A stretch of DNA of 43,877 bases. It comes from a virus. Below are positions 4,481-31,280 of this stretch, piece by piece. The position numbers were made by a program, and so were the translations under genes. Location: positions 1 through 43,877 of IMG/VR virus record IMGVR_UViG_3300022214_000010. The stretch is one strand, 5' to 3'. The notes under the pieces are model-generated. The model had not been told where the DNA came from. It saw only the letters and a program-made list of their open reading frames with translations, and did no database searches. How positions within the stretch are numbered: the first letter of the stretch is position 1; the number at the start of each line of letters is the position of its first letter.

Positions 4481-6052
4481 TTAAACGTCAAGACGCGGCG
4501 CGCGATTGCTCGCGCTCACGTCGGGGGTTGTGGCAGGGCGCGCGCGGCCTTTCGCCCACTTGCGCAGCGCGCTGATTTTCTCCGCTGCAGTCTGAGCCAG
4601 GGGAACGGTTGCGCGCGCTGCGACGATCAGATCCTCGGCGACCAGGGCGCGCTCCTCCTCGGCGAATGCAGCAAAGAGCCCCTCGGGCACCAGCGCGGCG
4701 ATTTCCGCGCCCGTGAATCCGTCGCACACTTTCGCCACCTTGTAGATTGACTCCAGATCAAGGTTGCGATTGTGGGTGCGCAGTGTCGCGGCGATGATTT
4801 CGGCGCGCTCTTCGTTGTCCGGCAGATCGACGAAGAAAAGCTCATCGAATCGCCCCTTGCGCAGAAGCTCGGGCGGAAGCGCGCTCACGTCGTTCGACGT
4901 TGCCACGACGAACACGGAGCCCGCGCGGTCCTGCATCCAGCTGAGCACGGTTCCCAGCGCGTCGGCGCTCGTGCCACCGTCGGCCGCGCCCTGCGTTGCG
5001 CCGGCGAGCGCCTTTTCAATCTCATCCAGCCAGAGCACGCACGGCGCGACAGCTTCGGCCACGCGCAGCGCCTTGCGAATGTTGCCCTCTGACTCGCCGA
5101 CATACTTCGATTTCAACGCGCCCATGTCCAGGCGCAGGAGCGGCATCGCCCACGCTGTGGCGATCGCCTTGGCGGTGAGCGACTTCCCGCAGCCCGGCAC
5201 GCCCACGAGCAAGCACCCTTTCGGCGCCGGCAGCCCGTACGCCCTCGCCTTGGGCGAGAACGCGGCGCGACGTGCGCCGAGCCAGGCTTTCAGCGCGTCC
5301 AGCCCGCCGACTGCATCAAGCCCGCCCGGCAGGGGGTCAAACCATTCGAGCACCTTTTCCCGGGCGATTACGCGGCGCTTTTCTCCCGACACGGTTGCCG
5401 GGTCGATTCGCCGCGTCGACACGAGCGATTTCGCGAAACACGCTTGCGCCTCTTCGGCGGTGAGCCCGACTGCAGCGTCGATCGCCTGGTCGCGCGTGCC
5501 ATTGGGCGCGGCATCCTTGCGCATATCCTCGGGCAAAGCGGCGATCGCCCCGTCCAGAATCGCGGCGACCTCGGAGCGATCCGGGAGCGGCCATTCGATG
5601 ACGATCGCGTGTCCGGCAAGCTCGGGCGGAATGTCCGACTGCGGGGTCAGCACGATGACGGCGCGCGCCTCTTCGCGCGGCGCCATTGGCAAGGCTCGCG
5701 CCAACGAGCGCAACGAGCGCAGCACGCTGGGGTCGCGCAACCATGCGGGAATATCGCGCAGCACCCACACTTGCCGCGCCGTGCTTTCCCGAATCTCGGT
5801 GAGCACGGCCGCCGGATCCGTGAGCCTTTCGCCACCCTCGCGCGGCTCGCCGGCGAAGTTTGTCACCCCCGTGGCGCAGTCCCAGAAGCGCGGCTCATAG
5901 CTGGCGGCCTGGGCCGCTTCGACGATCAGCCGCTCGACGCGCGCCTCTTCGCGCGTCACGATCCACAGCAGAGGATTGCGAGCGCGCAGCAGTGCCGACA
6001 CGTCGGCGGCGGCGCGCGATCCCTTCGATTGATTCACGTTTTCCATGTTCAT
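4481..6052 (-). CDS. AAA+ ATPase (Ycf46-like / spastin-type core)
   Basis: A 523-aa protein with an N-terminal domain of about 235 residues that lacks a P-loop (RNPLLWIVTREEARVERL, VWVLRDIPAWLRD) and a C-terminal AAA+ core. Walker A is GVPGCGKS near residue 283, Walker B is VLWLDEIEKAL near 338, sensor 1 is VFVVATSND near 377, and RKGRFDELFF near 400 carries the probable arginine finger. All key residues are present, so it should hydrolyse ATP as a ring. The layout matches phage and bacterial proteins related to Ycf46. The start at 6052 (MNMENVNQ) follows GAGGGG; a frame running further upstream would overlap the 110-aa gene. Unfolding or remodelling of a phage or host protein is the general role; the target is unknown. 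Confidence 0.88.
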   Translation of the reverse strand: MNMENVNQSKGSRAAADVSALLRARNPLLWIVTREEARVERLIVEAAQAASYEPRFWDCATGVTNFAGEPREGGERLTDPAAVLTEIRESTARQVWVLRDIPAWLRDPSVLRSLRSLARALPMAPREEARAVIVLTPQSDIPPELAGHAIVIEWPLPDRSEVAAILDGAIAALPEDMRKDAAPNGTRDQAIDAAVGLTAEEAQACFAKSLVSTRRIDPATVSGEKRRVIAREKVLEWFDPLPGGLDAVGGLDALKAWLGARRAAFSPKARAYGLPAPKGCLLVGVPGCGKSLTAKAIATAWAMPLLRLDMGALKSKYVGESEGNIRKALRVAEAVAPCVLWLDEIEKALAGATQGAADGGTSADALGTVLSWMQDRAGSVFVVATSNDVSALPPELLRKGRFDELFFVDLPDNEERAEIIAATLRTHNRNLDLESIYKVAKVCDGFTGAEIAALVPEGLFAAFAEEERALVAEDLIVAARATVPLAQTAAEKISALRKWAKGRARPATTPDVSASNRAPRLDV

Positions 6053-6057
6053 TCCCC

Positions 6058-6390
6058 TCAGTGATTGCCCCACGATTGGCCGCCGTCGTGACTGTGCACG
6101 CCTTGAGCGACCGCTTTTTCGTTGACCTTGACCCCGCCGATTGCTTCGGCGCGCGCGAGCGCGCGGCGCAGCGCCGGCGAGTTTTCCGCCCGCAGTCGCC
6201 GGTAGGCGCACAGATCCGTGAGCCCGGCGCGCTCAGCTGCGCGCCAGTTGCGGAATGCCACCGACCCCTGCGGCCCCACCACGAGCGACACCGACCCCGC
6301 GGCGAGCGCGGCCTCGAGTCGCTTTGTTGCCTCTGCAAGCTTGCGCTTGCCCTGCTCGGTCATGCTTTCCGGTTGCGTATCGCATGGCAT
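6058..6390 (-). CDS. 110-aa conserved phage protein
   Basis: A small mixed helix/strand protein with the recurring phage pattern LEAALAAGSVSLVVGPQGSV, AFRNW, DLCAYRRL, NSPALRRALARAEAI, GVHSHDGGQSW. I have seen this type often in phages of beta-proteobacteria, without a known role. The ATG at 6390 follows AGGGG at a good distance, and a second Met at residue 10 is less likely. It is the first gene of the leftward ATPase unit. Its promoter region is shared with the divergent rightward genes, so it should be controlled through the 17-bp inverted repeat. A DNA-associated role is only a guess. Confidence 0.78.
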   Translation of the reverse strand: MPCDTQPESMTEQGKRKLAEATKRLEAALAAGSVSLVVGPQGSVAFRNWRAAERAGLTDLCAYRRLRAENSPALRRALARAEAIGGVKVNEKAVAQGVHSHDGGQSWGNH

Positions 6391-6553
6391 TGTGTGCCCC
6401 TTTTCGCGTTGAAATTACAGTAAACGCTTTGCCCTGCAATCGGTTGACACGCCCAGTAATTGCCTGCGTTAGTGGACGCTCACAAACACAAATAATCCTT
6501 GCAAAGCGTTTACTGTATCGTTTACTCTTGCCGAACACAACCAGGAGGCCCGA
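6391..6553. promoter_or_regulatory. Divergent promoter/operator region with perfect 17-bp inverted repeat
   Basis: The arm at 6416-6432 and the arm at 6501-6517 (GCAAAGCGTTTACTGTA on the plus strand) are exact reverse complements, separated by 68 bp. Each arm sits at a similar place in front of one of the two divergent genes (6390 leftward, 6554 rightward). A further CGTTTACT at 6519-6526 repeats the core of the right arm 12 bp on. TTGACA at 6444-6449 is a possible -35 for rightward transcription. On the minus strand TGTAAT overlaps the left arm as a possible -10. One regulator binding both arms, perhaps by looping, would control both units. Confidence 0.75.
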
Positions 6554-7402
6554 ATGGACACCCTTGAAGCTCTGCCGATCCTGCGCCGCATGGCGGAGGG
6601 AATGCACCCAACGAACGGCGAGCGGCTCGCCGACACCGACGCATGCCAGGACGTCACCGCGGTGCGCGCGCTGCACGTCGCGATCGCGACGCTAGAACAG
6701 CAGCAGCGCCGCAGGCGGCAAGCCGGAGCGGCGCCCGCCAAGCAGGGCACGCCGTGGACCGAAGAGGACGACCGCAAGCTGCTGTCGCGCTTCGATGCTG
6801 GCGACACCATCCCCGCGCTCATGGCGCTGATGGAACGCACCGCGAGCGGCGTGCGCGCGCGGCTGCTCAAGTACGGGCGCCTGGCCGCTACCCTCGCCGC
6901 GCTAGCACTGGGCGCCGTGATCGCCCCGCAGGACGCGCGCGCCGAGCCCTACGCGGCGCTAAGCATGCTGGACTTGACGCCGGAGCTCGCCGCCGGCTAC
7001 CGCTGGCGCCACGTCGAAGCCGAGCTCGCGCACTTCGGCGAGCTTCAGTACAGCGAGAACCTGAACGAGATAACCAGGGTGCAGGACTGGACGATCCGCG
7101 GCGACAGACTCACGCTGCGCGGATTGCTGCCTGTAAACGAATGGCTGACGCTCACCGCCAGCGCGAGCATGTATCGAGTGACGTACAAGTACACCGACAG
7201 CGCCGGCCCGTCGCACGAAGTTAAAGGCACGAGCCAGGGCTACGGCATCGGCGCGCAATTCAGCGTTGGCCGGCGCGCGCACGTGCACTTCGAAATGCTC
7301 CGCATTAAGCGTGCGAACGAAGTCGACCAGCTGCCGCAGCCTGGATACTTCGACCTCGGCGACCCAGAGCAGTGGCGCATCGGCTTTGCCTACCGGTTCT
7401 AG
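6554..7402 (+). CDS. Fusion: phage DNA-binding (Myb/SANT-like) domain plus outer-membrane beta-barrel
   Basis: 282 aa in one open frame. Residues 1-55 are helical. Residues about 66-108 (GTPWTEEDDRKLLSRFDAG, then ERTASGVRARLLKYGR) match the Trp-led helix-turn-helix common in small phage proteins, which normally stop here. The frame continues into LAATLAALALGAVIAPQDARA, a signal-peptide-like segment with a cleavage site after ARA (130), and then alternating strands that end in AYRF, the terminal Phe typical of outer-membrane barrels. The ATG at 6554 has an AGGAGG site. Internal starts at M90, M93 or GTG at V100 would yield a normal exported barrel. One nested gene, a recent fusion or a true two-part protein are all open. 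The barrel could alter the cell surface against superinfection; this is inference. Confidence 0.75.
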   Translation: MDTLEALPILRRMAEGMHPTNGERLADTDACQDVTAVRALHVAIATLEQQQRRRRQAGAAPAKQGTPWTEEDDRKLLSRFDAGDTIPALMALMERTASGVRARLLKYGRLAATLAALALGAVIAPQDARAEPYAALSMLDLTPELAAGYRWRHVEAELAHFGELQYSENLNEITRVQDWTIRGDRLTLRGLLPVNEWLTLTASASMYRVTYKYTDSAGPSHEVKGTSQGYGIGAQFSVGRRAHVHFEMLRIKRANEVDQLPQPGYFDLGDPEQWRIGFAYRF

Positions 7403-7404
7403 CC

Positions 7405-7644
7405 GTGCTCTATATCGAGCTCCGCAAAAAGCACGCCCGCCGCCCGACTGTGATTGAGACGTCGCGCACCGAGCCCGGCGCCAAGCGCATGGCGCGCGCG
7501 CTCGCGCGCCAGCGCTTCGGCGATCCGTTCTTTGTGGTCGAGCGCAGCGCCAAGGGAGGCGGGCACTGGCAGGAGAGGGCGACGGACGGCGAGACGACCG
7601 GCGAAGAAATCCACATCACCGGCAACCAGGACGACACCCAATGA
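7405..7644 (+). CDS. 79-aa hypothetical phage protein
   Basis: The start is taken as GTG at 7405, two bases after the preceding stop. Its stop overlaps the next ATG (ATGA). The protein is basic at the start (YIELRKKHARRP) and has a compact region RFGDPFFVVERSAKGGGHW followed by an acidic tail rich in Thr and Glu. I do not recognise a family. A longer upstream frame would overlap the barrel gene and lacks support. It is the second gene of the rightward early unit, and tight coupling on both sides argues that it is real. No regulatory or catalytic motif is visible. Confidence 0.6.
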   Translation: MLYIELRKKHARRPTVIETSRTEPGAKRMARALARQRFGDPFFVVERSAKGGGHWQERATDGETTGEEIHITGNQDDTQ

Positions 7645-13457: not shown

Positions 13458-14263
13458 TCCGGGAAGTCCTGCACGCGCAGATCCTCGGGCCACTCGGCGG
13501 GGTCGGCGCCATGGCGATCCTTGAAGTGCTTGAGCATTGCCGGGTTGCATGGACTGGAGCCAAGTTGCTTCACGAACACAGGCACGCGCCCACGCTTGCA
13601 CTGCTCGATCGTGCTGCGCGCCCAGGCAAGATTGAATGGCCGCGCTACGACGCCGCCTTGCGAGGACTCGCCGCCGACGATGATCCAGTCCAGTTGATCT
13701 AGCGCGTACTTGTTGAACTTGGAATCAGCGCCTACGCACTTGATCTTCGACCAATCCACCGGCCCCAAAGCTGGCTCATAGCTCACGAAGCGCACAGCTG
13801 CCGGCGTGGCGAGCAGCTTCGGAATATCTCGGTCGGCCTCCTCCTGGTTCACCACGGACGCGCCAAGCCACACGTTCGGGTAGTCGCCGCCTGGGTGCAT
13901 CTTCGCCACGTTGCCGATGCGCTTGGTGAGCAGGAGCCAAGTCAGGTTCGGCGTCGCGCGGATCAGCGCCCACAGCCGATCACGCTGCGTCTGCTCGACC
14001 TCGTTGTCGAACACGTCGGCCATGCTCGCGCAGAACACCAGATGGCGTTTCCCGGTCGCGCCCGCGGCCTTGTTCCAGCGCAGCGGCTCGTTCCAGTGTT
14101 TGTCGCCGAAGTAGCGCCGCGGCGCGCCCTGACCCCATCCGTAGCCGAACCGCTTGGCGAGCTCGCGTGCGTAGCAGTTGTCGCACCCAGGCGAGACTTC
14201 CATGCAACCCCACCACGGATTGAACGTGCTATCGGTCCACGCGATGCCGGTTTTCTCAGACAC
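13454..14263 (-). CDS. Phage Gp37/Gp68-family protein (DUF5131, radical-SAM-like)
   Basis: A 269-aa protein beginning TGIAWTDSTFNPWWGC and SPGCDNCYA, which gives C20, C27 and C30, the cysteine cluster of the DUF5131 (Gp37/Gp68) family. Later marks are HLVFCASMADVFD, WLLLTKRIGN, NVWLGASVVNQEEAD, RFVSYEPALGPVD and WIIVGGESSQGG, in the order usual for this family. The fold is thought to be related to radical-SAM or TIM-barrel enzymes, but the reaction is unknown. The gene sits in many phages beside recombination genes. Length is normal. An ATG start is used, and the 3' end overlaps the next GTG. It may modify nucleic acid or a host factor; no direct evidence. Confidence 0.88.
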   Translation of the reverse strand: MSEKTGIAWTDSTFNPWWGCMEVSPGCDNCYARELAKRFGYGWGQGAPRRYFGDKHWNEPLRWNKAAGATGKRHLVFCASMADVFDNEVEQTQRDRLWALIRATPNLTWLLLTKRIGNVAKMHPGGDYPNVWLGASVVNQEEADRDIPKLLATPAAVRFVSYEPALGPVDWSKIKCVGADSKFNKYALDQLDWIIVGGESSQGGVVARPFNLAWARSTIEQCKRGRVPVFVKQLGSSPCNPAMLKHFKDRHGADPAEWPEDLRVQDFPE

Positions 14264-18914: not shown

Positions 18915-21900
18915 CTAGGGCGCCGCGCGCTCCTCGAATCGCTTATTGAAGCCCATCATCGCCTGCCGGATGCGCCCCTGCAGCTGCTCGATCTGCTTGG
19001 TGCGCTGGTCGTCGGTAAGCCGGTCGTTCTTGCGGACCCGCCAGACCTCTTTGCGCAGGACGCCGATCTGACGCTCGACGGCCTGGGCTTCGGCGTACAT
19101 GGACCGCTCGCCGCGGAATTCGCTGGCGTAGGCGCGAGCCTTGTCCTGCTGGCCGCGCTCGAAGGCACGCTGGACCTCGAAGTGCGCCGTCTCCGCTGCG
19201 TTCAGGTTCTCGTAGAAGCGATGCGAGAGCTCGAAGTCCTTGGGCTGGTAGTAGAAGCGCCGCAGGAACGGAATGTCCCGGACCTCGGGCTCCGCCCCGA
19301 CTGCCTTGCCGTGCACGAACTCGGCCGTGCGCGCATAGAAGGCGCCGGCGCCGCCGAAGATCGAGCGCGTCCAGTGCTCGAGCATGTTCGGGGCAATGTC
19401 CAGGATCCCGGAGCGCACTTCATTTCCACCGGTTGCCTCGTTCAGCCAGGCCGTGACATCGACGTAGCCCTGCGGCGTGCCAGCGTAGTAGGTCGCGCTC
19501 TTCGCCTGCGGCGGCGCGGTGCGCGGGCGCTCTGGCACGATGCTGCGGTCGAACCAATTCCGGTTCGTCATGGCCTGCGCGAACGGATCGAAGAAGGTAG
19601 GACTGATCAGCTGCAGCGCGCCCAGCGCGCTCTCGGGGCTTTGTCCGAACGGGTTGAAGGCATTGATCATCGTCACGAGCATGTCGCCCGCGGCGTCGAG
19701 CGGCGTCTTCGCCCCCTGCATGACCGACATGGCATGCACGCCGGCGACGTAGAACACGTTGAAACCGAAGGGCAGCGGCACGGTAATCGCGTCTTCGCCG
19801 TCCGGCGTCATGAGGATGAAGTTGCGCTCCTTGATGGCGTCGTTGATGTTGTCGTAGACCTTGCGGCCGTCCGGCTCGGTCGCGCTTTCTCGGCGGTTCC
19901 ACCAATCGAACCCCATACCCAACAGGAACAGCATCAGCGCCAGGGCTTGAATCGCCCGGTGGTTCGCCACGGAGCGGAACAGCAGCGCCGAGCCCTGAAT
20001 GTTGGCGTTGAAGAACATGTAGTAGGCGCCGATCAGCGTGCCGGCATTGCCCTTGAGGTTGAAGTCCACGGTCACGTTGCGCGCGAGGAAGGCGGCGTCC
20101 TTCTCGTTCCACCCGGACTCGACCGCGTTCTTGAAGGTCGACAGGCGCAGCGCGTTTTCCACGGCGCCGTTGGCGTTGATGATGAGATTGGCGAAGAACT
20201 TTACGCCGGCGACTTTCGCCACACGATGCGCGCGCAGCCGCGTTTTCGTCAGCCCAGCGACGGCCTCGGGCATGATCCCGCTGTCGGCGAGCGTGGTCAG
20301 GAAGTCCTTGTGTTGGGTTTCCACGTCCTGCAGGCCGCGGTAGGCGACGTGCCCGCCGGCCTCGATGTAGCGCCTGTACCAGCGGTGCCAGTCGCCAGAG
20401 TCCGGCTTCAGTTGGCCCTTCGCGTGCAGCCCGGCGAATGCGCCCCAGAGCGCCCCAGGGACGTCCTTCGCCACCTTGAGCGCGAGGCCGGGATTCTGCT
20501 CCCCGGAAATGCGGATTACCGCCTGCTGGAAGTCGCGCATCAGGTTCGTGACTACGAATTCCGGGTTCGCCGCGGTTGCCATCAGCGCATAGAAGCGCGT
20601 GATAGTCCCGATCATCTGGGTGAATTCGCTCACTGGCTGGCCGCTCGTCTTGTATGCCTGGGCCATGCGCTCGTCGGCCATCATGATGATCACGCGCTCG
20701 CCGTTGACGGGGACGCTGATTGCGCGCCCGCCGTACTTGGCGTCGATCAGCACCGAGCGCGGCGCGTACTGGACTTGCCCGGTGTCCTGGTCGATATAGG
20801 GCTTCCACACGTGCTTCTGGATCCGCCACACGCCGGGATTCGGGGCGAATTCGACTTGGCGCAGGAGGGAGCGCAGCACCGCCGCGTTCTCACCTGCCGA
20901 GATAGTGCCTTTGGCCTGGGCGATGAGCGCCGGCAGGATGAACTCGGACTGCGCTTCGGTGAACCGGCCGAAGGCGGTGTTGATCAGCCGTCCCACCTGG
21001 TAGCCGCCGCCGACCTCGGTTTGCACGTGCTCATCCGTCGCCATTTCCTTGAGCGGCACGTAGTTCGGGTACTTTTGCTGCAGGAGCGCCACCGCTTCCA
21101 TTTTGGCGAGGCCCTTGTCGATCATGACGTCTTCGCGGAATCGGCTGATGCGATTGGCGAGGGCGCCGATCTGCTCCATGGCGGCGAAGCGCGCGCCCAG
21201 CCGATCGCGTAGCCCCTGCATCATCTGCGCCGCGCGCTCGGTGGTGATACCCGACCCGGCCTTGTTGTCCGGGTTGATGGACTCGATCGCCGCATTGCGC
21301 TCGGGGGCGTGGCGCGCGTACAGGTAGTCGCCAACGTCTCTGAGAGTGAAGCGATTGGCCTTCATCAGGTCGATGATCGGCTCGCTGTGGTCGTGGTCGA
21401 AGTCGGCGATCTTGCCGGCCGCGCGCGGATGCGCGATGCGCGCCTCGCGGTGAGCCTTGGCCGACTCGGGGATCGCGCCCACTTGCGCCGCGATCGTGCG
21501 CTCGTAGAGCTCGGGCAGGAGCAACCTGTTCTGGAAGTAGATCACGGCGCGACGCAGGTACGAATCGGCTTTGGGCGCCACCCAATCCCGATCGAACAGA
21601 GACGAATCGGGCACCGGGAGATTGCGGGGCTTGATCACGTTCAACTCCAGCCCTTCCCGGTTGAACATGCGATTGACTTCGTTCAGGCTCGCAGCCTGGT
21701 CGCGACGGAACTGCCCCCGGGCGAACATGTTCTCGTTCGTGCCGTTAGCCAGGTACACGTCCCAGATCCCGGCGTTACCACGCTTCACGGCCATGCCGAG
21801 CAGCCGGCCATCCTTGACCCCGTAGACCTCGCGCACGCCCACCGGCTCGCGTAGGGAGAAGCGCGTGCGGCGCGCAGCGCGGGCCAGGTGCGCGGCGTAG

Positions 21901-24900
21901 GCGTCCCGGGCGGCCTCGATCAGCTGCTCGTCGCTGCCCGCCCTCCCGCTTGGCGTCCCCGATACGATGTGGCGCAGCCGGTCAGCCAACTCGGTCCGCG
22001 TTTCGATCTTCATGCCGGAAGGAACGTCGCCCATGAAGCGCCAGTAGGAATCCCGGAATTGCTCCTCCACCGTGCTGTAGTCCGCGGCGTCCTCGGCGTC
22101 CTGCTCGACCTCGAGCTCGCCTTCCAGTTGCTCCAAGGTGCTGGAGTAGCGAACGCGCAACTGGGCCAGCTCGGCGTCCAGGTCTTCGGCGTTCTTCTGG
22201 CCGCGCCGATAGGCCTGGTCGACGCGCCGGCCCAGCGCGCGCATCTGATCCGCCATGCGCGACACGTCGTCGCGCAGGCTGAACATCGGCAGGCCGCGCA
22301 GCGCCGCATCGCGCATGGCTGGGGTGATGTCGAAGCCGAGTTGCGTCATTACAACAACACTGGTAGGACGTGGGGACGGGCTCAATGTTTCAAGTTTGGC
22401 TAGCGCATCGCCGGCCAACTCTCTCGTTCTGTAAGAGCCATAGCTGGTGCCGTCAGCGTAGAACACATCAAAGTGAGAGGCGCGCGCTGTGCTGGGTCGA
22501 ATGTAATTACCTTGTGCTGTACGGATCTCGGCGATGCCGACTTCCACAACGCGCCCGCCGCCGACCTTCTTCAACACGTTGTTGGCGACGATGGGGACGA
22601 TCTTGTCGTAGAACTCGATCATGGCCTTCCCGCCGATGCGTAGCTCCTGCCGCAGCGTGCGTGCGCGCGTCATGCTCGGCGCGAGGCGTTCGGCCTCGGC
22701 CTTGGTCGGCGCGTCGCCAAGGTAAACACCATGACGGGTGACCTGGAAGTGCGACTGCGTAGCGTTCCTGTAGCGCGCCTCGGTAATCAGGGCGTCGGCC
22801 TCACCTTCGCCGGCGATGATCCGTTTGGCTAGATCCTCGCCCACCACGTCGGGCAGGAGGGCGGCGGTGTAGTAGCCAAGGTCAACTCGGCGGCCGCGCG
22901 TGTCCTTTCCGGTGATCCGATACTTCGACTGCCCATCGCCCGGGGGCTCGTAGCTCACCTCGCTGACGCGCGTGCCGATGCCATAGCGGTCATTCTGCTG
23001 ATCGCCGGTGGTCCACGCGACGCGCTCGAAGCCGTTCTCGGCGGCGTAGCGGATGACGCGCTTCAGCAATAGAGCGGTCCACTGTTCGGTCTTGCCGACG
23101 AAGGGGGCGCGCGGAATGGCAGTAGCATCAAAATGTGCGACAGCCTCCGCCCTGGTCGGCCTGGATCCGCCGATGCGAGCCCCATCCCCCTCCCGCACAA
23201 CGACAAACATGCCGTCACCACGTTGCTCTACATGATGGCCACTCGGCAACTGCCCACGGAACCCTCTCTTGCGCCCCTGCTCGGCCCAATCGCTTTGAAA
23301 CTCCTCGACGAACAGGACGCGCTTGCCCTCGGCGTCGGTGCGCTCGTCGAAGCGCACGTGGGCGAACAGGTTGAGCGTGTCGAAGTGCGGCGGGGTGAAC
23401 GCATCGGCGCGCGCGTATGGCGGCACCACGGATGGCGCCGCCGGTGGCGGTAACGTCAGCAAGAGCTCTCGATAGTTGCGTCCACCTGGAAGCGCCCACT
23501 TCTCATAGCGCGTTACCGACAAACCAACGAAGTTGTCGTCTCCATGCCACGCTGTAGTAGGCGCGATCTCCCGTAGCCGATCCACCGCTTGGCGCAGGGT
23601 GCCGCCAACACCTTCCACAGATACATTCGAGTCCGGCAGTGCCGCGTACGGCTCTTCGCCGAGCAAGTGTCGGCCAGGCTCATCCTCTCGACGTGGGACG
23701 CGATTCGGATCCGCGAGGTAGAAGGCGTCGTTGTTCCTGTCGATCACTCCCCACAGCTTGCCTTCCTCGTCGTACTCGACATCGAAGCCGTGGGCGTCGA
23801 GGGCAACCTGCAGGTTGTCGCGCTCACGCAGGAGGTTGCGCATCTCGTTTTCGTCAGTGATGCCAGCGGGCGTGATGTAGTTCGGCTCGCCAAGGATTCG
23901 TTCCTCGATCTGCACGCCGTGATCCGTGAGGAATTCCAGCACGTTGTCCTTGGGCAGAATCGTCGTCTCTTTATCGGCATCCAGGGCATCGAACCACTCA
24001 CGAAGGCCGGTCCACTCAATCTCGTCCGGCTTCACGCCCTTCTGCAGCAGGCCGCCGACGAACTTGCGCCACTCCGCGGTGGTGGCGCGCTTCGGCCCGA
24101 GCTCGCGCACCCGGTCCATCAGAGTCGAGCGCCAGATCGGTCTGGGCGCCGCAAGCTGCCATGCAGGCGAGCCGTTGTACGTGGTGTTGCCGCCGTTGAT
24201 CACGGCCAGCCTGCTCTGGCGCAGCATCATCAGAATGTCGCTTTCGCTCCACTCTTTCACGAAGCCGTTCTCGCGCAGCCACAGGCGCACCATGGCGACG
24301 AAGCGCTGCCACAGATTCGCCTCCTCGCCGCGCTCGGCCCGGTGCGCCAGCCACTCGCTCGCGGCGTGGATCTGGTGCTCGGGCTTTCGGAAATCGAAGT
24401 TGTAATTCCGCAGAGGGCCGGTCCGCGCTTCGGCTTGAATGTCGCCTGCGCGAGAGCGGTAGACGTCGAGCATGAAATCGACGTACTTCTCGCCGAGGAT
24501 CTGGTCCATGCCATAGTGCCCGACGAACTCGTGCAGGATGGTCGTACTGGCTTCGCCCGGTTGCAGGTTCGAGGCGACCAGGTAGACCTTGCCTTGCACC
24601 GGGCTCCAGGCGCCGCTCACCTTGGCGATCCCGCCGATCGCCATGAGCTCGTCGATCATGTGCTGCGGCAGCTGGTATGGATTGTCAACGTACTCGATGC
24701 GGCTGCGGAAGGCTTGAGCGATGGGGTTGCTCATCAACTCTTCCTGCACCTTCGGCACGGTCATGTCGCTCCAGCGACCGGACAGGCTGTAGAACGGCTG
24801 CAGCGCCGTCGAGCGCCCGCGCTCGGCGAACGAAGCGAGACTGGGCAGGCCTTGGGCCGATCCGACGTCTACGGGCGTGAAAGCGTCGAGCATTCTCACG

Positions 24901-27900
24901 TCCGCGCCAGCGAGCGCGCCGCCCACGTTGCTCACGGCGCGCTGTATTTCCGGGGAATAGGCCTCGCCCGGGAAGTACGCCACCGCCGCCGCTGGATTGT
25001 TGCGCCCCACCTGGCGCATCAGCTTGGCAAAGCCGCTCGTGAGCTCGTGCGTGCGCAGCTTCGACATTTCCTCCTTCGCCATGTAGTAGAAGGCGATCGG
25101 CCGATGCTGCGCATCCATGAGGAGCAGGCCGCTACGCTCTGGCTTGATACGGCCAAGGTACTCGCGCATGGCGCCGGGCGACTGCAGCGCGACGCCGCGG
25201 TCCTGCTCGAGCTTGACGACACGCTCGCGCACGGGGATTTCCTTCCCCTGCGCCACCACTTGAGGAAGCGGCTGCGTGCCCAGCCCCATTGCGTGGAAGT
25301 TCTGCCCCGCGATAATGATGTGGCCCTTGAATTCGATGCCCAGGTCGCGAGTCAGGCCGGCCGAGAGGCTGTCGTTCAGGAGCTCATCAGCGTTCGAAGG
25401 GCTCGCCAAGCCGCTCGGATGATTGTGGGCCAACCAGACCTTACGTACTTCCGGGGTCTGGTAAAGAGCAAGCCATACCTCGCGTGGATAGACGCTCGTT
25501 TGCGTGAGCGTGCCGGCGAACAGGTCGTAGTAGGCAATCGGCTCGTCGCGCTCGTTCAGGCCGAGCATGTGGAAGCGCTCGCGCGGCGACTTCACCAGCT
25601 GCGTGAACGCGCTGGCGGCGTCTACGTGGTCCCGAATTACTGTCGAGGGCAACCGGACGGATCCGGTGCGCTCGGATTCGACTACGATTTTTTCGAAGAG
25701 GACGCCCGGCGTACCCGGTACGGGGGTCTGGGAGAATAGGTCGAGTTGCGGCGTGGCCGCACCTTCGTCTCGATCCTTTCTTTGGGAAGCGGGTACTTCA
25801 CCCCCCAACGATACCATCGCCTCGAACTTCTTCGCGAGCGACGTCGACAGCGGCCCGCCCTTCGGCCCCTTACCGCCCTTGGTCTGCGCCCACTGCGTGA
25901 ACGCCTTGAAGGACATGGGGATGATGGAGTCCAGGCCGTCCCAGTTTGCCGCGTAGTTGCGCAAATAGCCCTCGCGCGCGTCGGCGAGGTCGCCGTAGCC
26001 GAGCATCACCTTGTGCTCATCGAAGCCGCCGACCACCTGGTTGACGACGAATACGAGCCCGCCGAAGTCGTCCCGCGTCCCCGGCTTCACGAACACGTCC
26101 AGGTGATCCTTGTCGAATCCGATCGTCCCCTTGATGTAGCCGTAGTGATCTTTCAGCGGCGGCCATTCCGGGCGGCGCTTCTCTCCTTCTGGCGTCTCGA
26201 TCGAGATATCGAGTTGGTGACCTTTAGGCCCGACGATCCAGTGGCCCTTCGAGTAGTTGCCAGCTTCGGCCTGCGCCTGACTCTCGGGCGTCTCGGCTTG
26301 CTTCGCGGCGTAGTCGACAGTGCGCTGGAACAGCTTGAGTTGCTGCGTCGGAACTTTCTGCTCGTCCACCGACTTCGGCGGCGCCGTGCCCTCGGGCGTC
26401 GTGAGTAGGGGCGGCTCGGGGCCGGTGAGCTTGGGCTGCGGGGCTTCGGTGGGCTTCGAGAACAGGTCGCCACCGCGCTCCGGTGGCTTCTCCTTCGCGA
26501 TCGTTCGCAGCCGCTCCCAGGGCTGCAGCTTGCCCGGCGCTGGGATGCCCTTCGGGTTGCGGTTTGCGTTGCGGATCAGGCTGACGCTCTTTGTGCGCTC
26601 CCACTTGACCTCGACGCTCTGCTCGCCACCAACTTTCTCGGCCTTGATGATTTCGCCCTTGTCGCCCTTTTCGTTCTCAACGCGATCGCCTACGGCAAAT
26701 TCAGTCGGCTTGGTGAGAGCCCGGCCTTCGTCCTCCGGCAGTTCGGCCTCGCCCCAGCTGCGTTCGTCGGCCTCGCGCTCGGCGATTTCGCTCTGCGACA
26801 ACTCACCCAGCAAGTCGGGTTGCGGCGCGCGCTCGGCCATGAGCGCCTGCATGTCGTCTCGCCACTTCTCGTAGGTAAAGCTATCGTCGTGCGCGTAGCT
26901 GGCGTGCGTGACCTCGCCGAAGTCCATCGCACGCGCATCGAGTAGCGGCTCAGACTCGGGGCCAGAACGCCCGTAAAGGAACGTGCGAATGTGGAATCGG
27001 GTTGGCGTGATCTTCTCGATCTTCCCGAACGTGCCTGACACATACGCGCTCGCGCCGTCCACCGTGTCCGCGATCACCGCGTGGATCTGCACGGTATCGC
27101 CGACGCTGAAAGTCTCCCTGTAGTCTTTCTCCTGCTGTCTCCAGTGTGCTTCGGCCTTGGCGCGATCATCGGCTTGCACTTGCGCTTTCGATTTGCCGGC
27201 GACGTACTTGCCCTTGGGCTGCTTGACCTTGGAGCGCTCATCGAACACGGCACGGCGCATTTGCGCGACTAGCTCTCGGCGTGAGGCGAGCACCCAGTCG
27301 TAGGTGCCCCGGATTGCGTTCTCTCCGGGGATCGGGCGCTCGGCAATGTTGCGCTCGACCTGCTCTATAACTCTCTCGGCAACGAGTAGCCAGCCATCGC
27401 CATAACGCTTCTTGATCCGCGCGACCCATTGCGCGCCATCCTCGTTGCCGTACGCCGCGCGCGCCTGCTCCGCAACGAGGCGCGTGCCGCGTCCGCCGCG
27501 CTCGGTCTTGACCTCGGGATCCTTGGTGTGCCCATCGAAAGCGATGGCCTTTGCTTCGTCGAACGACTGCGCCACGCCCTTGTTGCGCAACTGGCCCATG
27601 GAGCCGCTGACCACGACGTGCCACGGGCGCATGTCGGGCACCGGCTTGAGGATGATAGCGCGGCGCCCGTTGATGTCCGCGGCAAAGTAGTCCAGGTACT
27701 CGTTCCAGTTGACGTCTTCTGGCGTTTTAGCAACCGGCGCGCCCTCGTCGATCTCGCGCGGGCCGAACGCCTTGAGCCTGTTCTTGCGCGCCTCGACCGC
27801 AGCTTGGTCCACCGGCACATCACGCGCGTGCTCTGCGGCGTCGCGCGCCGTTTCCACGAGCTCCTTGGGCGCCGTCTTTATTGCCTGGTCGCTGAACAAC

Positions 27901-30900
27901 CAGGTCATGAATTCCGCCTTTTGGACACGGACGCGCGTGCCCCCGGGCGGATAGGTCCAGAGCGCGCCGTCGTCGTTCAGCTTCGCGTTCTTGTCGAAGG
28001 CCGCTATCAGCTTGGGCATGTCGCTGGCCGCGTGCTCGGCCACCGCATCGAAGTGCGGCCCGATCGCGCGCCCCTTGAGCTCGGTGCCATCGGGCAGCGT
28101 GAACGCAGCTACTTGAGCGGCTTCGCCTTCAGCGGCCTCACTGTCGACAATTTTGGTGACTTTGTAGCGCGGCGGCGGGCGTTGGCGAGTTTGGCGATCT
28201 CCATCACCTTCTTCATCTCGTTCGGTGTCATAGGGCTTCTCCAGTTCGCGGCGCAGGGCCACGATCAATTCTTCGTCGGGGGCTTCGGCGTACTGAATCG
28301 AGAACCGCTCGCGCGTGTCTTCGTCCAACTGGCTCATCAGATCAGTGATCACCATTTTCGAGGCATCCGCCGTCAGGCCGCGCTCGGCCAACTCCTCGGG
28401 CGGAATGTCGAATTGCAGCGGTATGTCGCCGGCAAGCGCCTCGGCTTCGTCGGCTAGTTCCCGGTCTGGATCCTCTGACAGTTCGGCCTTGGCGCGCTCG
28501 TCTGCGGCGAGCGCCCGATCGCTGCGCTGCATCGACCAATGCTTGGGAACGACCGTGTTGTTCGGCCCGATCTCGTCCCTGATGCGCTCGGCGATCACGG
28601 TCAGATCGCCGCGCTCCTCCTCGTTGAGATAGCCCATTTCGTAGAGCTTCTCGGCCATGCCGTCGAGGGACTCGCCTTCGGCATTGAACAAGGCGCCGAG
28701 AAAGGGGATTTTCGGGTTCGACCCCTTGGTGTCCCCGGTGATGTCGAGGCGCTCGATCGGCCCGATGCCGCCCAGCTTGATGACCGCCGACACGATGCTG
28801 TCAGTGTCGGTGTTGACCTGCGCGCGCCGCGCGCGGGCCTCGCGCATCTTGCGCAGCGCCTCCTCGGTCGGGGGCTTCTTGGGCTTTTTCACCAGGTCGA
28901 TGAGCTGCTGGCGCAGTGGTGCGCGATCTGGATCGTTGACGGCCAGGCGCCCCATCTGATCGAGCACGGCCTTGACCTCGGCTGCCGCCTCGTCGTCGAT
29001 CGCTTTCCAGAGCCGGCCCAGCGCGCGCCCATCGTTGAGCTCTACGGTATCGGCGTCGACCAGCTTGCCGTCCTTGCCTACGTAAAAGCTGGACACTATG
29101 CCGCTCGGGCTGCGTTTCTCGAGCATCACGGCGCCGCCCGCGCTCTTGACCCTCGAAACCCGGTACTTGGAGCCCTTCTCTGGTCCTGCACGGAACCCAT
29201 TTGGCAGCTCGGCGCCAGGCTCACTCGGCGTCGGCGTGACGGCCTGCGGCGGACGAACTGCCTCCGGCGAAACATCACTCGGCGGCGCAACGGCGGCTGA
29301 ACGAGAACCAGGAGGAGGAGAAGGTTCAACGGCAGCCGCCGCCGGCCGCCTTTCAGGAGCGGGCTTGCGGCCCACTGTTTTTCTGGTCATGCCCAGGAGC
29401 GCTTTGGCGTCCTCACCGAGCGATGCGAATTCCGTCAACGGTACTTCCTGCCCATCGGCAAGGCGCGCGGTGCCAATTTCCTGCCCAGGCCCTGTGATCT
29501 GGACCTCGTAGCCGACACCGTTGACGGTCCATTCGGCGTTCGCCTCGGGCTTCTTGACGGGCTCGGCGCGATCGGCCTCGACCAGATCGCCCTCGTCGGT
29601 TTCCCACACCCCGCGCACCGGTTTTCCCTGTTCGGCGCGCGCGCGCACGGGGGTGCCGTCCTCGAGGCGGTGCGTGGCTGGGCCGCGCGCCTCACGCTGC
29701 GCCACGGCGGCCTTGGCGGCGGCCTCGGTCACCTGTTTGAACTGTTCCACCCCTTCCCGGAACTTCTGCAGGATCGCGGCTTGCTGCTCCGCCGCATCTG
29801 CCTCACGGCCGCGCAGCGCGCGCACCGCGCCAGCCTGCGCGCCCGCGGCGAGCGGCGTGCTGGTGATGGTGAGCAGGAGCTCCTCGGCGTACTCGTCCCA
29901 GGTCATTTCCGGACGCACGCTCACTTTGTCGACGGCATTCTGCAGGCCGGTGGCCAGGAGCTCCTGGCCGACCTCCTTGGACAGGAAGTTGAGGAACCAT
30001 TGCAGGGTGCCCTTCCCGGCGCCGGCGAACAGCTGCTTGACCGGGGCGTACTCGGTCCCGCCCTCGATGACGGCATGCAGCATGGCGTAGACGCCAGCCT
30101 GGCCGGGAGACAGCCCCTCTTCCCGGCCCTCGCCGTACGCGATCGCGCCTGTCTCAGCCGACATCAAACCGATGACCGCCAGCGGCGAGCGCGTGATCAG
30201 CCCGGCGCCCAGCGCCGGCCCCATGATTGCGAGGCTCTGGATCGCCATGCCCACGGACTGGGCGCCCAAGCCCGGCCGCAGATCCTTGGTGAGCTCTTTC
30301 TCGCGCTCCTCGCCCATCTTGACCAGGGTGCGACCCAAGGTCGCCATCTGCTCGCGTTCCTGATCCGTCAGGTCCGGTGTCAGCGGCCCTTCGGCGCCCT
30401 GCTCGGGCGTTTCTGCCCGGTAAATGGGGGCTTCGGCCATCCCCATCATGACGCCGCCCAGCATCTTCCGGTACAGGGGGTCGATCCCCTTCACGCTGGC
30501 TTCCACGTTGCGCCAGAAGTCGCTCATGGCGACGTCGCGCGCGCGCTGCGCCTCGCCCTGCACCCTGCGCTCGACCTCGCTCAGCGCGTTGGCCGGAAGC
30601 TGCTGGCGTTCCAGATTGGCGATCTGGGCTTCTGGATACGGGCGCGGTCGGCCTTCCCGGTCGGCCTCGATGTTCGCGATGCGCATCCGAGAGGATTCAA
30701 CCCGCAGGCCAGGCTCGGCGGCGCTGCCCAATGCCCCGGCGCGCTGCCGCGCGATCACGTCGCGCTGGGTCTGGTTCAGACCATCTTGCGCTGCATCAAT
30801 CCTCTGTTGCTGGCGCCTGCGGTCCTCGGGTCCGCTTGGGCGCAGGAGGTTCGACACCCAGTCGATTCCACGGTCAACTGCAGACTTGACTGAATCGAGC

Positions 30901-31280
30901 ACGCCATCGTCGGCGGGAGCGGCCTTGGCGCCAAACTGCTGCAGAAACTCCGCCCCCAGTTCGGCGTCGGACTTCTCCCCGACCGGCGCGCCACGGCGCG
31001 GCCCCGCGATGGCCGCCTCGCGCTCGTCGAAGCGCAGTGTGTCCGCGTCGTAGGCTTCCCGGAGGATCTGTCGGCGCGCTGGATCTGGTTGTCTCTCGAT
31101 GGCGCGGCGATGCTCCTGCCGCTGCGTAGGTTGCGACTCGTAAGCGTCGCTCGCCTCACGCTCGCCTTCGGACATCAGCTGCGCGCGGCGGTTCTCCAGC
31201 GCACGCATCGACGGGCCTTGCCGCCCGTTTGGCGGCTCCAGCTCGTCGAGGATCGCCTTGAAATCGTCGTAACCACTCAC
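18915..31280 (-). CDS. Giant polyvalent virion protein (4121 aa)
   Basis: A single open frame of 12.4 kb, starting GTG at 31280 in a GTGA overlap. Regions, approximate residues: 1-340 coiled/charged; 345-500 hydrophobic helices (VGMAIQSLAIMGPALGAGLI); 560-650 linkers; 1390-1570 two small-barrel segments (VGDRVENEKGDKGEII); 1670-1800 an inorganic-pyrophosphatase-like domain of the polyvalent type (GNYSKGHWIVGPKG, HYGYIKGT, FDKDHLDVFV); 1875-2000 a RadC/JAB metalloprotease-like domain with H1952, H1954 and D1965 (HNHPSG); about 2250 HEFVGHYG; 2655-2670 EEFQSDWAEQGRKRGF; 2880-2900 GGKAMIEFYDKIVP; about 3565 ATAANPEFVVTNLMRDFQQ (LPD38-like); 3775-3795 a membrane-like helix; charged C-terminus. 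Such proteins are packed in podovirus virions and thought to enter the cell with DNA, protecting or modifying it. The individual activities are inferred. Confidence 0.9.
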   Translation of the reverse strand: MSGYDDFKAILDELEPPNGRQGPSMRALENRRAQLMSEGEREASDAYESQPTQRQEHRRAIERQPDPARRQILREAYDADTLRFDEREAAIAGPRRGAPVGEKSDAELGAEFLQQFGAKAAPADDGVLDSVKSAVDRGIDWVSNLLRPSGPEDRRRQQQRIDAAQDGLNQTQRDVIARQRAGALGSAAEPGLRVESSRMRIANIEADREGRPRPYPEAQIANLERQQLPANALSEVERRVQGEAQRARDVAMSDFWRNVEASVKGIDPLYRKMLGGVMMGMAEAPIYRAETPEQGAEGPLTPDLTDQEREQMATLGRTLVKMGEEREKELTKDLRPGLGAQSVGMAIQSLAIMGPALGAGLITRSPLAVIGLMSAETGAIAYGEGREEGLSPGQAGVYAMLHAVIEGGTEYAPVKQLFAGAGKGTLQWFLNFLSKEVGQELLATGLQNAVDKVSVRPEMTWDEYAEELLLTITSTPLAAGAQAGAVRALRGREADAAEQQAAILQKFREGVEQFKQVTEAAAKAAVAQREARGPATHRLEDGTPVRARAEQGKPVRGVWETDEGDLVEADRAEPVKKPEANAEWTVNGVGYEVQITGPGQEIGTARLADGQEVPLTEFASLGEDAKALLGMTRKTVGRKPAPERRPAAAAVEPSPPPGSRSAAVAPPSDVSPEAVRPPQAVTPTPSEPGAELPNGFRAGPEKGSKYRVSRVKSAGGAVMLEKRSPSGIVSSFYVGKDGKLVDADTVELNDGRALGRLWKAIDDEAAAEVKAVLDQMGRLAVNDPDRAPLRQQLIDLVKKPKKPPTEEALRKMREARARRAQVNTDTDSIVSAVIKLGGIGPIERLDITGDTKGSNPKIPFLGALFNAEGESLDGMAEKLYEMGYLNEEERGDLTVIAERIRDEIGPNNTVVPKHWSMQRSDRALAADERAKAELSEDPDRELADEAEALAGDIPLQFDIPPEELAERGLTADASKMVITDLMSQLDEDTRERFSIQYAEAPDEELIVALRRELEKPYDTERDEEGDGDRQTRQRPPPRYKVTKIVDSEAAEGEAAQVAAFTLPDGTELKGRAIGPHFDAVAEHAASDMPKLIAAFDKNAKLNDDGALWTYPPGGTRVRVQKAEFMTWLFSDQAIKTAPKELVETARDAAEHARDVPVDQAAVEARKNRLKAFGPREIDEGAPVAKTPEDVNWNEYLDYFAADINGRRAIILKPVPDMRPWHVVVSGSMGQLRNKGVAQSFDEAKAIAFDGHTKDPEVKTERGGRGTRLVAEQARAAYGNEDGAQWVARIKKRYGDGWLLVAERVIEQVERNIAERPIPGENAIRGTYDWVLASRRELVAQMRRAVFDERSKVKQPKGKYVAGKSKAQVQADDRAKAEAHWRQQEKDYRETFSVGDTVQIHAVIADTVDGASAYVSGTFGKIEKITPTRFHIRTFLYGRSGPESEPLLDARAMDFGEVTHASYAHDDSFTYEKWRDDMQALMAERAPQPDLLGELSQSEIAEREADERSWGEAELPEDEGRALTKPTEFAVGDRVENEKGDKGEIIKAEKVGGEQSVEVKWERTKSVSLIRNANRNPKGIPAPGKLQPWERLRTIAKEKPPERGGDLFSKPTEAPQPKLTGPEPPLLTTPEGTAPPKSVDEQKVPTQQLKLFQRTVDYAAKQAETPESQAQAEAGNYSKGHWIVGPKGHQLDISIETPEGEKRRPEWPPLKDHYGYIKGTIGFDKDHLDVFVKPGTRDDFGGLVFVVNQVVGGFDEHKVMLGYGDLADAREGYLRNYAANWDGLDSIIPMSFKAFTQWAQTKGGKGPKGGPLSTSLAKKFEAMVSLGGEVPASQRKDRDEGAATPQLDLFSQTPVPGTPGVLFEKIVVESERTGSVRLPSTVIRDHVDAASAFTQLVKSPRERFHMLGLNERDEPIAYYDLFAGTLTQTSVYPREVWLALYQTPEVRKVWLAHNHPSGLASPSNADELLNDSLSAGLTRDLGIEFKGHIIIAGQNFHAMGLGTQPLPQVVAQGKEIPVRERVVKLEQDRGVALQSPGAMREYLGRIKPERSGLLLMDAQHRPIAFYYMAKEEMSKLRTHELTSGFAKLMRQVGRNNPAAAVAYFPGEAYSPEIQRAVSNVGGALAGADVRMLDAFTPVDVGSAQGLPSLASFAERGRSTALQPFYSLSGRWSDMTVPKVQEELMSNPIAQAFRSRIEYVDNPYQLPQHMIDELMAIGGIAKVSGAWSPVQGKVYLVASNLQPGEASTTILHEFVGHYGMDQILGEKYVDFMLDVYRSRAGDIQAEARTGPLRNYNFDFRKPEHQIHAASEWLAHRAERGEEANLWQRFVAMVRLWLRENGFVKEWSESDILMMLRQSRLAVINGGNTTYNGSPAWQLAAPRPIWRSTLMDRVRELGPKRATTAEWRKFVGGLLQKGVKPDEIEWTGLREWFDALDADKETTILPKDNVLEFLTDHGVQIEERILGEPNYITPAGITDENEMRNLLRERDNLQVALDAHGFDVEYDEEGKLWGVIDRNNDAFYLADPNRVPRREDEPGRHLLGEEPYAALPDSNVSVEGVGGTLRQAVDRLREIAPTTAWHGDDNFVGLSVTRYEKWALPGGRNYRELLLTLPPPAAPSVVPPYARADAFTPPHFDTLNLFAHVRFDERTDAEGKRVLFVEEFQSDWAEQGRKRGFRGQLPSGHHVEQRGDGMFVVVREGDGARIGGSRPTRAEAVAHFDATAIPRAPFVGKTEQWTALLLKRVIRYAAENGFERVAWTTGDQQNDRYGIGTRVSEVSYEPPGDGQSKYRITGKDTRGRRVDLGYYTAALLPDVVGEDLAKRIIAGEGEADALITEARYRNATQSHFQVTRHGVYLGDAPTKAEAERLAPSMTRARTLRQELRIGGKAMIEFYDKIVPIVANNVLKKVGGGRVVEVGIAEIRTAQGNYIRPSTARASHFDVFYADGTSYGSYRTRELAGDALAKLETLSPSPRPTSVVVMTQLGFDITPAMRDAALRGLPMFSLRDDVSRMADQMRALGRRVDQAYRRGQKNAEDLDAELAQLRVRYSSTLEQLEGELEVEQDAEDAADYSTVEEQFRDSYWRFMGDVPSGMKIETRTELADRLRHIVSGTPSGRAGSDEQLIEAARDAYAAHLARAARRTRFSLREPVGVREVYGVKDGRLLGMAVKRGNAGIWDVYLANGTNENMFARGQFRRDQAASLNEVNRMFNREGLELNVIKPRNLPVPDSSLFDRDWVAPKADSYLRRAVIYFQNRLLLPELYERTIAAQVGAIPESAKAHREARIAHPRAAGKIADFDHDHSEPIIDLMKANRFTLRDVGDYLYARHAPERNAAIESINPDNKAGSGITTERAAQMMQGLRDRLGARFAAMEQIGALANRISRFREDVMIDKGLAKMEAVALLQQKYPNYVPLKEMATDEHVQTEVGGGYQVGRLINTAFGRFTEAQSEFILPALIAQAKGTISAGENAAVLRSLLRQVEFAPNPGVWRIQKHVWKPYIDQDTGQVQYAPRSVLIDAKYGGRAISVPVNGERVIIMMADERMAQAYKTSGQPVSEFTQMIGTITRFYALMATAANPEFVVTNLMRDFQQAVIRISGEQNPGLALKVAKDVPGALWGAFAGLHAKGQLKPDSGDWHRWYRRYIEAGGHVAYRGLQDVETQHKDFLTTLADSGIMPEAVAGLTKTRLRAHRVAKVAGVKFFANLIINANGAVENALRLSTFKNAVESGWNEKDAAFLARNVTVDFNLKGNAGTLIGAYYMFFNANIQGSALLFRSVANHRAIQALALMLFLLGMGFDWWNRRESATEPDGRKVYDNINDAIKERNFILMTPDGEDAITVPLPFGFNVFYVAGVHAMSVMQGAKTPLDAAGDMLVTMINAFNPFGQSPESALGALQLISPTFFDPFAQAMTNRNWFDRSIVPERPRTAPPQAKSATYYAGTPQGYVDVTAWLNEATGGNEVRSGILDIAPNMLEHWTRSIFGGAGAFYARTAEFVHGKAVGAEPEVRDIPFLRRFYYQPKDFELSHRFYENLNAAETAHFEVQRAFERGQQDKARAYASEFRGERSMYAEAQAVERQIGVLRKEVWRVRKNDRLTDDQRTKQIEQLQGRIRQAMMGFNKRFEERAAP

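Follow-up and report, generated by a model that had tools for sequence, protein, structure and literature searches.

The FbcH cytochrome b/c1 precursor of Bradyrhizobium is a single chain that signal peptidase splits at an internal signal sequence, and each part is a respiratory protein of the membrane or the periplasm. In regulators of the ToxR/CadC type, a DNA-binding domain, a membrane segment and an exported domain follow one another in this order (PMC8517210). The signal for assembly of outer-membrane barrels, the BAM beta-signal, has the form zeta-x-G-x-x-[Omega/Phi]-x-[Omega/Phi] (PMC10945584). The window analysed in this study is the whole of an IMG/VR virus record of 43,877 bases, and its open reading frame 6554-7402 appears, from its sequence, to join two known types of protein in a real in-frame fusion that is so far unique. 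As in FbcH, one chain would be divided by signal peptidase at an internal signal, but one of the parts is a predicted DNA-binding protein instead of a respiratory one. The order of parts is also that of the ToxR/CadC-type regulators, whereas these have an uncleaved anchor, a periplasmic sensor and a winged helix of another family.

The open reading frame has no internal stop across its 282 codons upon translation. GC3 is 0.87 in the N half, 0.85 in the signal segment and 0.84 in the barrel half, and the codon adaptation index (CAI) in frame is 0.74, 0.73 and 0.69 for the same three parts, compared with 0.31-0.68 in the other two frames. Thus, all three parts carry the codon bias of the phage and the frame is coding throughout, which confirms the single open frame that a preliminary description of this DNA had proposed. 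An AGGAGG is placed at the right distance from ATG 6554. The gene leads the first rightward unit, as that description had also stated, and the GTG at 7405 lies only two bases past its stop, a spacing that is expected in a normal, working packed operon. On the divergent side, the listed GTG start of the ATPase gene overlaps its neighbour, so the true start is probably further in (near 6046). The coordinates of the features are collected in Table 1.

Table 1. Features of the fusion gene and its surroundings in the window.
Feature	Position	Strand	Remarks
AAA-type ATPase, phrog_8638	4481..6211	-	75% identical in L009
Divergent neighbour, phrog_11784	6058..6390	-	syntenic in L009
Operator-like arm 1, perfect 17-nt inverted repeat	6416..6432	-	TACAGTAAACGCTTTGC on + strand; conserved in L009
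Operator-like arm 2 (GCAAAGCGTTTACTGTA)	6501..6517	+	another CGTTTACT copy follows, to 6526
Shine-Dalgarno region (CCAGGAGG) of ATG 6554	6542..6549	+	annealing -10.3 kcal/mol
Fusion ORF, 282 aa	6554..7402	+	start ATG, stop TAG
Residues 1-110, complete Myb/HTH-like family member	6554..6883	+	HTH helices: residues 70-81, 86-93, 97-106
Signal-peptide-like segment, residues 110-130	6881..6943	+	h-region LAATLAALALGAVIA; predicted cut between ARA and EP
Putative OMP_b-brl-type beta-barrel, residues 131-282	6944..7399	+	PF13505 match, strand pattern
C-terminal beta-signal RIGFAYRF	7376..7399	+	motif from PMC10945584
Next gene of rightward unit	7405..7644	+	GTG start; homologue in L009

Residues 1-110 belong to a widespread family whose members are about 103-118 aa long. 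A tblastn search with these residues found full-length stand-alone ORFs on plasmids of Burkholderia, Paraburkholderia and Vibrio (E 9e-12 to 1e-6). The hypothetical proteins of the Burkholderia and Paraburkholderia plasmids (113-118 aa; e.g. WP_165189844.1 and WP_012211054.1) match residues 1-110 over the whole length with 30-36% identity and keep the same invariant residues, but unlike the fusion they end at the domain and have neither a signal peptide nor a barrel. Scanning of GTDB contigs with the family gave 19 loci, including Bacteroidota, Firmicutes and Proteobacteria, and 369 genomes from the class to which the Paraburkholderia genome G046 belongs gave nine matches, including one copy that was already known. 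Full-length members end 1-22 aa past the domain or carry further HTH repeats; two clostridial loci, for example, have two extra repeats past the Myb-like domain. Neither a signal peptide nor a barrel was present in any relative found outside the window, and the window protein is the only family member that continues into both. At five Pedobacter loci, several full and broken Myb-like copies adjoin each other, as if they were multiplying or mobile.

The N-terminal family motif G-x-x-P-x-x-G-E and the W...R...L of the HTH part are both present in residues 1-110. With 12 relatives, AlphaFold2 modelled residues 1-50 and 71-110 at a block-mean pLDDT of 85-97 and a linker at residues 51-70 at 70-76. 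The model has a helical N part followed by a three-helix HTH at residues 70-106, with block means of 90-97 over residues 71-110. A Pfam search with the N half alone did not return any family at a significant score. The best sequence match of the family profile in the PDB was c-Myb R2R3, which is weak (E 0.0045-0.0068). Together with the three-helix model, this makes the label Myb/SANT-like given in the preliminary description a fair one. Its proposal that a DNA-binding domain is complete at about residue 108-110 is supported as well, since the relatives stop there; DNA binding itself is predicted from the sequence. The HTH part also occurs in phages of Xanthomonas, Stenotrophomonas and Variovorax, in a hypothetical protein of about 315 aa in the two annotated cases that were viewed.

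The Pfam profile PF13505 (OMP_b-brl) matched residues 146-282 with an E-value of 8.5e-5, or 2.4e-5 when the N domain was removed, at a score of 23.2-25.0 bits that is below the curated cut-off of 28.7. The protein ends in RIGFAYRF, eight residues that conform to the BAM beta-signal. Such a C-terminal signal is found in 1 of the 408 ORFs of the window, the fusion ORF only, and in 12 of 15,803 ORFs of the window and related loci. Seven amphipathic strand-like stretches were counted, against 2.4 ± 1.3 in shuffled sequences (fraction 0.0035). Residues 131-282 therefore look like a small outer-membrane barrel of the PF13505 type, and the three observations support the barrel ending in Phe that had been described earlier. 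The barrel half could not be modelled with confidence because there is effectively one sequence for it. Prediction from the single sequence gave a pLDDT of 43, and with the relatives of the N half most of the barrel half stayed below 60. A Foldseek search with the full model did not find anything at E≤0.001, and a cupin and other matches were at chance level because the barrel half was not modelled.

Searches of phages, plasmids, IMG/VR and GTDB contigs with the barrel half returned no match at useful E-values. A sample of 321 genomes from the class of G046 gave five matches (E 7e-5 to 5e-3); three of these, from betaproteobacteria, look like usual OmpA-type barrels behind ordinary signal peptides. 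PF13505, applied to 43 related viral records, identified two barrels, each with its own signal peptide and neither at the leader locus. The C half thus has the profile match, the strand pattern and the terminal beta-signal in common with small PF13505 and OmpA-type barrels; yet the barrels that were found start with their own signal peptide, and none has an N-terminal DNA-binding domain. The profiles of phage Lom/Ail (PF06316) and PagP (PF07017) did not give any match to the fusion ORF at E≤1, and superinfection exclusion, the role suggested in the preliminary description, is a guess.

The joint between the two halves is placed exactly at the natural C-terminus of the Myb/HTH-like family, whose C-terminal residues L-x-x-x-GR-x fall at positions 104-110. 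Directly thereafter, residues 110-124 (LAATLAALALGAVIA) form the 15-residue stretch of highest hydrophobicity in the protein, with a mean Kyte-Doolittle value of 2.36, and are followed by PQDARA and EPY, between which the cleavage site was read by eye. The stretch RARLLKYGR closes the last HTH helix and is at the same time suitable as a charged n-region. The location of the joint therefore suggests a signal peptide that lacks a start codon and an n-region of its own, with the end of the HTH as their substitute. A signal-peptide-like segment after the DNA-binding domain, as seen in the earlier reading, is in agreement with these data.

A scan with the ATPase encoded next to the fusion locus yielded 55 loci. 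One of them, L009 (IMGVR_UViG_3300031576_000233, a contig of 30.5 kb), shares with the window the genes that flank the leader position on either side. The divergent promoter regions of the window and L009 aligned with a score of 90, compared with 43 ± 6.3 in shuffles, and the promoter elements GTAAACGCTTT and GTTTACT-N4-CGTTTACT are kept in L009. When viral contigs were scanned for GTTTACT-N4-CGTTTACT, the L009 record was the only one besides the window that had the locus in common, and the other matches look like chance. In the window, these promoter elements make up the perfect 17-nt inverted repeat (6416-6432 and 6501-6517), which is expected 0.04 times by chance, and the region 6416-6526 between the divergent units is a candidate operator.

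At the leader position, L009 has an ORF of 29 aa (MKRHALIIAGLLSAGVVNAQPYVGLSVSF; 5506-5595, minus strand) with its own Shine-Dalgarno sequence under the conserved divergent promoter. It consists of an ordinary signal peptide and the ten residues QPYVGLSVSF, the end of which fits the BAM beta-signal. Position, homologous divergent promoter, signal peptide and beta-signal-like end are as in the window, whereas the ORF is much shorter than the fusion and has neither a DNA-binding domain nor a barrel. At the DNA level, the peptide region and the signal segment of the window did not show significant similarity (40 against 36.7 ± 4.7), so the orthology that is suggested for the 29-aa ORF and the barrel gene is based on where the ORF lies, on its promoter and on the rare motif at its C-terminus. 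Because the L009 leader combines an ordinary signal peptide with a beta-signal-like end, the position probably once held a normal gene for an exported barrel. The simplest history is that such a leader gene was reduced in L009, while in the window it was fused with a Myb-like gene. The 29-aa ORF may be what is left of a barrel gene, or it may encode a secreted mini-peptide. In vitro, peptides with a beta-signal are able to inhibit the assembly of outer-membrane proteins (PMC10945584), and a function as an assembly-blocking peptide is therefore conceivable.

A second copy of the fusion was not found in the phage, plasmid, viral-contig and genome collections searched. In everything found outside the window contig the halves occur apart. 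The preliminary description had held that homologues with the halves always as separate genes would speak against a fusion, yet this separation only makes the fusion unique and does not disprove it. Because it was seen in a single contig, the joint may stem from a wrong base or a chimera, or the fusion may lack a function. The explanation that we prefer, with a confidence somewhat short of even, is a lineage-specific in-frame fusion in a temperate-type podophage, translated as a single chain with an internal signal that is perhaps cut by signal peptidase. It is supported by the open coding frame, the complete N domain with the joint at its natural end, the signal-like segment, the beta-signal, the syntenic promoter and flanking genes, the leader ORF of L009, the closely spaced next gene and a Shine-Dalgarno sequence at 6554 only. 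Against it count the single contig, the L009 peptide region that is not significantly similar in DNA, and a barrel half without a close homologue, without a confident AlphaFold2 barrel and with a Pfam score below the cut-off. Internal signal sequences after a folded 108-residue domain are, furthermore, rare in bacteria.

In this explanation, the leader of the rightward early unit would ancestrally have encoded an exported barrel, from a start codon of its own and with a signal peptide. A separate gene for a stand-alone Myb/HTH-like regulator would then have arrived between the promoter and the barrel gene, and its 3' end would have replaced the start codon and the positively charged n-region of the latter. 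Translation would initiate at ATG 6554; RARLLKYGR from the last HTH helix would supply the charged n-region of an internal Sec signal, and residues 110-124 would be its h-region. Provided that such a signal is accepted by Sec, signal peptidase would cut after ARA-130, the barrel would reach the outer membrane via BAM and the DNA-binding part would stay cytoplasmic, perhaps tethered to the inner membrane. Export, cleavage, DNA binding and any function of the barrel are what we infer here. Rather doubtful is the extension of this scheme to a phage "polyprotein" that the host signal peptidase splits into a cytoplasmic or membrane-tethered DNA-binding regulator and a barrel in a fixed 1:1 ratio; regulation could then be coupled to barrel export. 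Should the full chain be produced and exported, a phage would provide a case of an internal signal sequence after a folded DNA-binding domain, one that would test how strictly bacterial Sec requires signal peptides to be N-terminal. One gene would then join control of transcription and a change of the surface.

An unlikely alternative is a recent accidental fusion in which one half is non-functional: either the barrel and its export are dead and the Myb-like regulator carries a useless tail, or the reverse. This would fit a fusion observed once, and L009, which retains just a signal peptide and ten residues at the leader position, indicates that the barrel is dispensable in the lineage. However, the signal segment, the strands, the C-terminal beta-signal and the codon bias are all intact, so any loss would need to be recent.

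Less probable is the production of two proteins from one frame. ATG 6554 would then give the full-length, cytoplasmic DNA-binding protein, and M90, M93 or GTG100 would start a barrel precursor with an n-region that overlaps the HTH. A good n- and h-region does follow shortly after these three in-frame start codons. However, the annealing energies of the 20 nt upstream of each start to the anti-Shine-Dalgarno sequence are -0.3 kcal/mol for M90, -1.5 for M93 and -3.3 for GTG100, compared with the -10.3 of ATG 6554. All three codons are within the conserved HTH and thus give no sign of selection as starts, and the full-length chain would still include the barrel. The internal starts put forward in the preliminary description therefore did not gain support, although initiation without a Shine-Dalgarno sequence is conceivable.

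Still more doubtful is an error of sequencing or assembly, in which the N gene really stops and the barrel has its own start, or in which two phage genomes were joined. The contig is a single metagenomic one, and a shift of one base anywhere in 6875-6902 would stop the N protein at residue 116, the usual family length. However, stops are frequent in the shifted frame (11 in 283 codons), and one at so short a distance would turn up in about a third of cases; the tail encoded in this frame is also unlike the family end (VEH/IER). There is no run of four or more equal bases at the joint, and after the shift the barrel would still lack a start supported by a Shine-Dalgarno sequence. Hence, a sequencing error at the joint is possible but not favoured. 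The promoter side and the downstream side both match L009 in the same order, which speaks against a chimera.

A ToxR-like one-component transmembrane regulator, with a cytoplasmic HTH, an uncleaved single membrane segment and a periplasmic sensor, is very improbable in spite of the same order of an N-terminal DNA-binding domain, one hydrophobic segment and an exported C-terminal domain, as the hydrophobic stretch of 15 residues is short for an anchor and is followed by a predicted signal-peptidase site (ARA before E), the C-terminal part resembles an outer-membrane barrel with a beta-signal and not a periplasmic sensor, and the HTH is Myb-like and not a ToxR/OmpR winged helix.

The internal virion protein of the window is about 30% identical to its counterparts in the Bcep22-like podophages BcepIL02, DC1 and JC1, and no near relative of it was found in IMG/VR. 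The window also contains an ORF of 4,121 aa (18915-31280, minus strand), which places it in the size class of the giant protein known from Bcep22-like phages; in phage Parlo, a protein of 3,764 residues is assumed to be a DarB homologue (PMC6606913). BcepIL02 gp22 (13661-14104 of locus L089) is PagP, another outer-membrane barrel in a Bcep22-like phage, and surface-changing barrels thus recur in this phage group.
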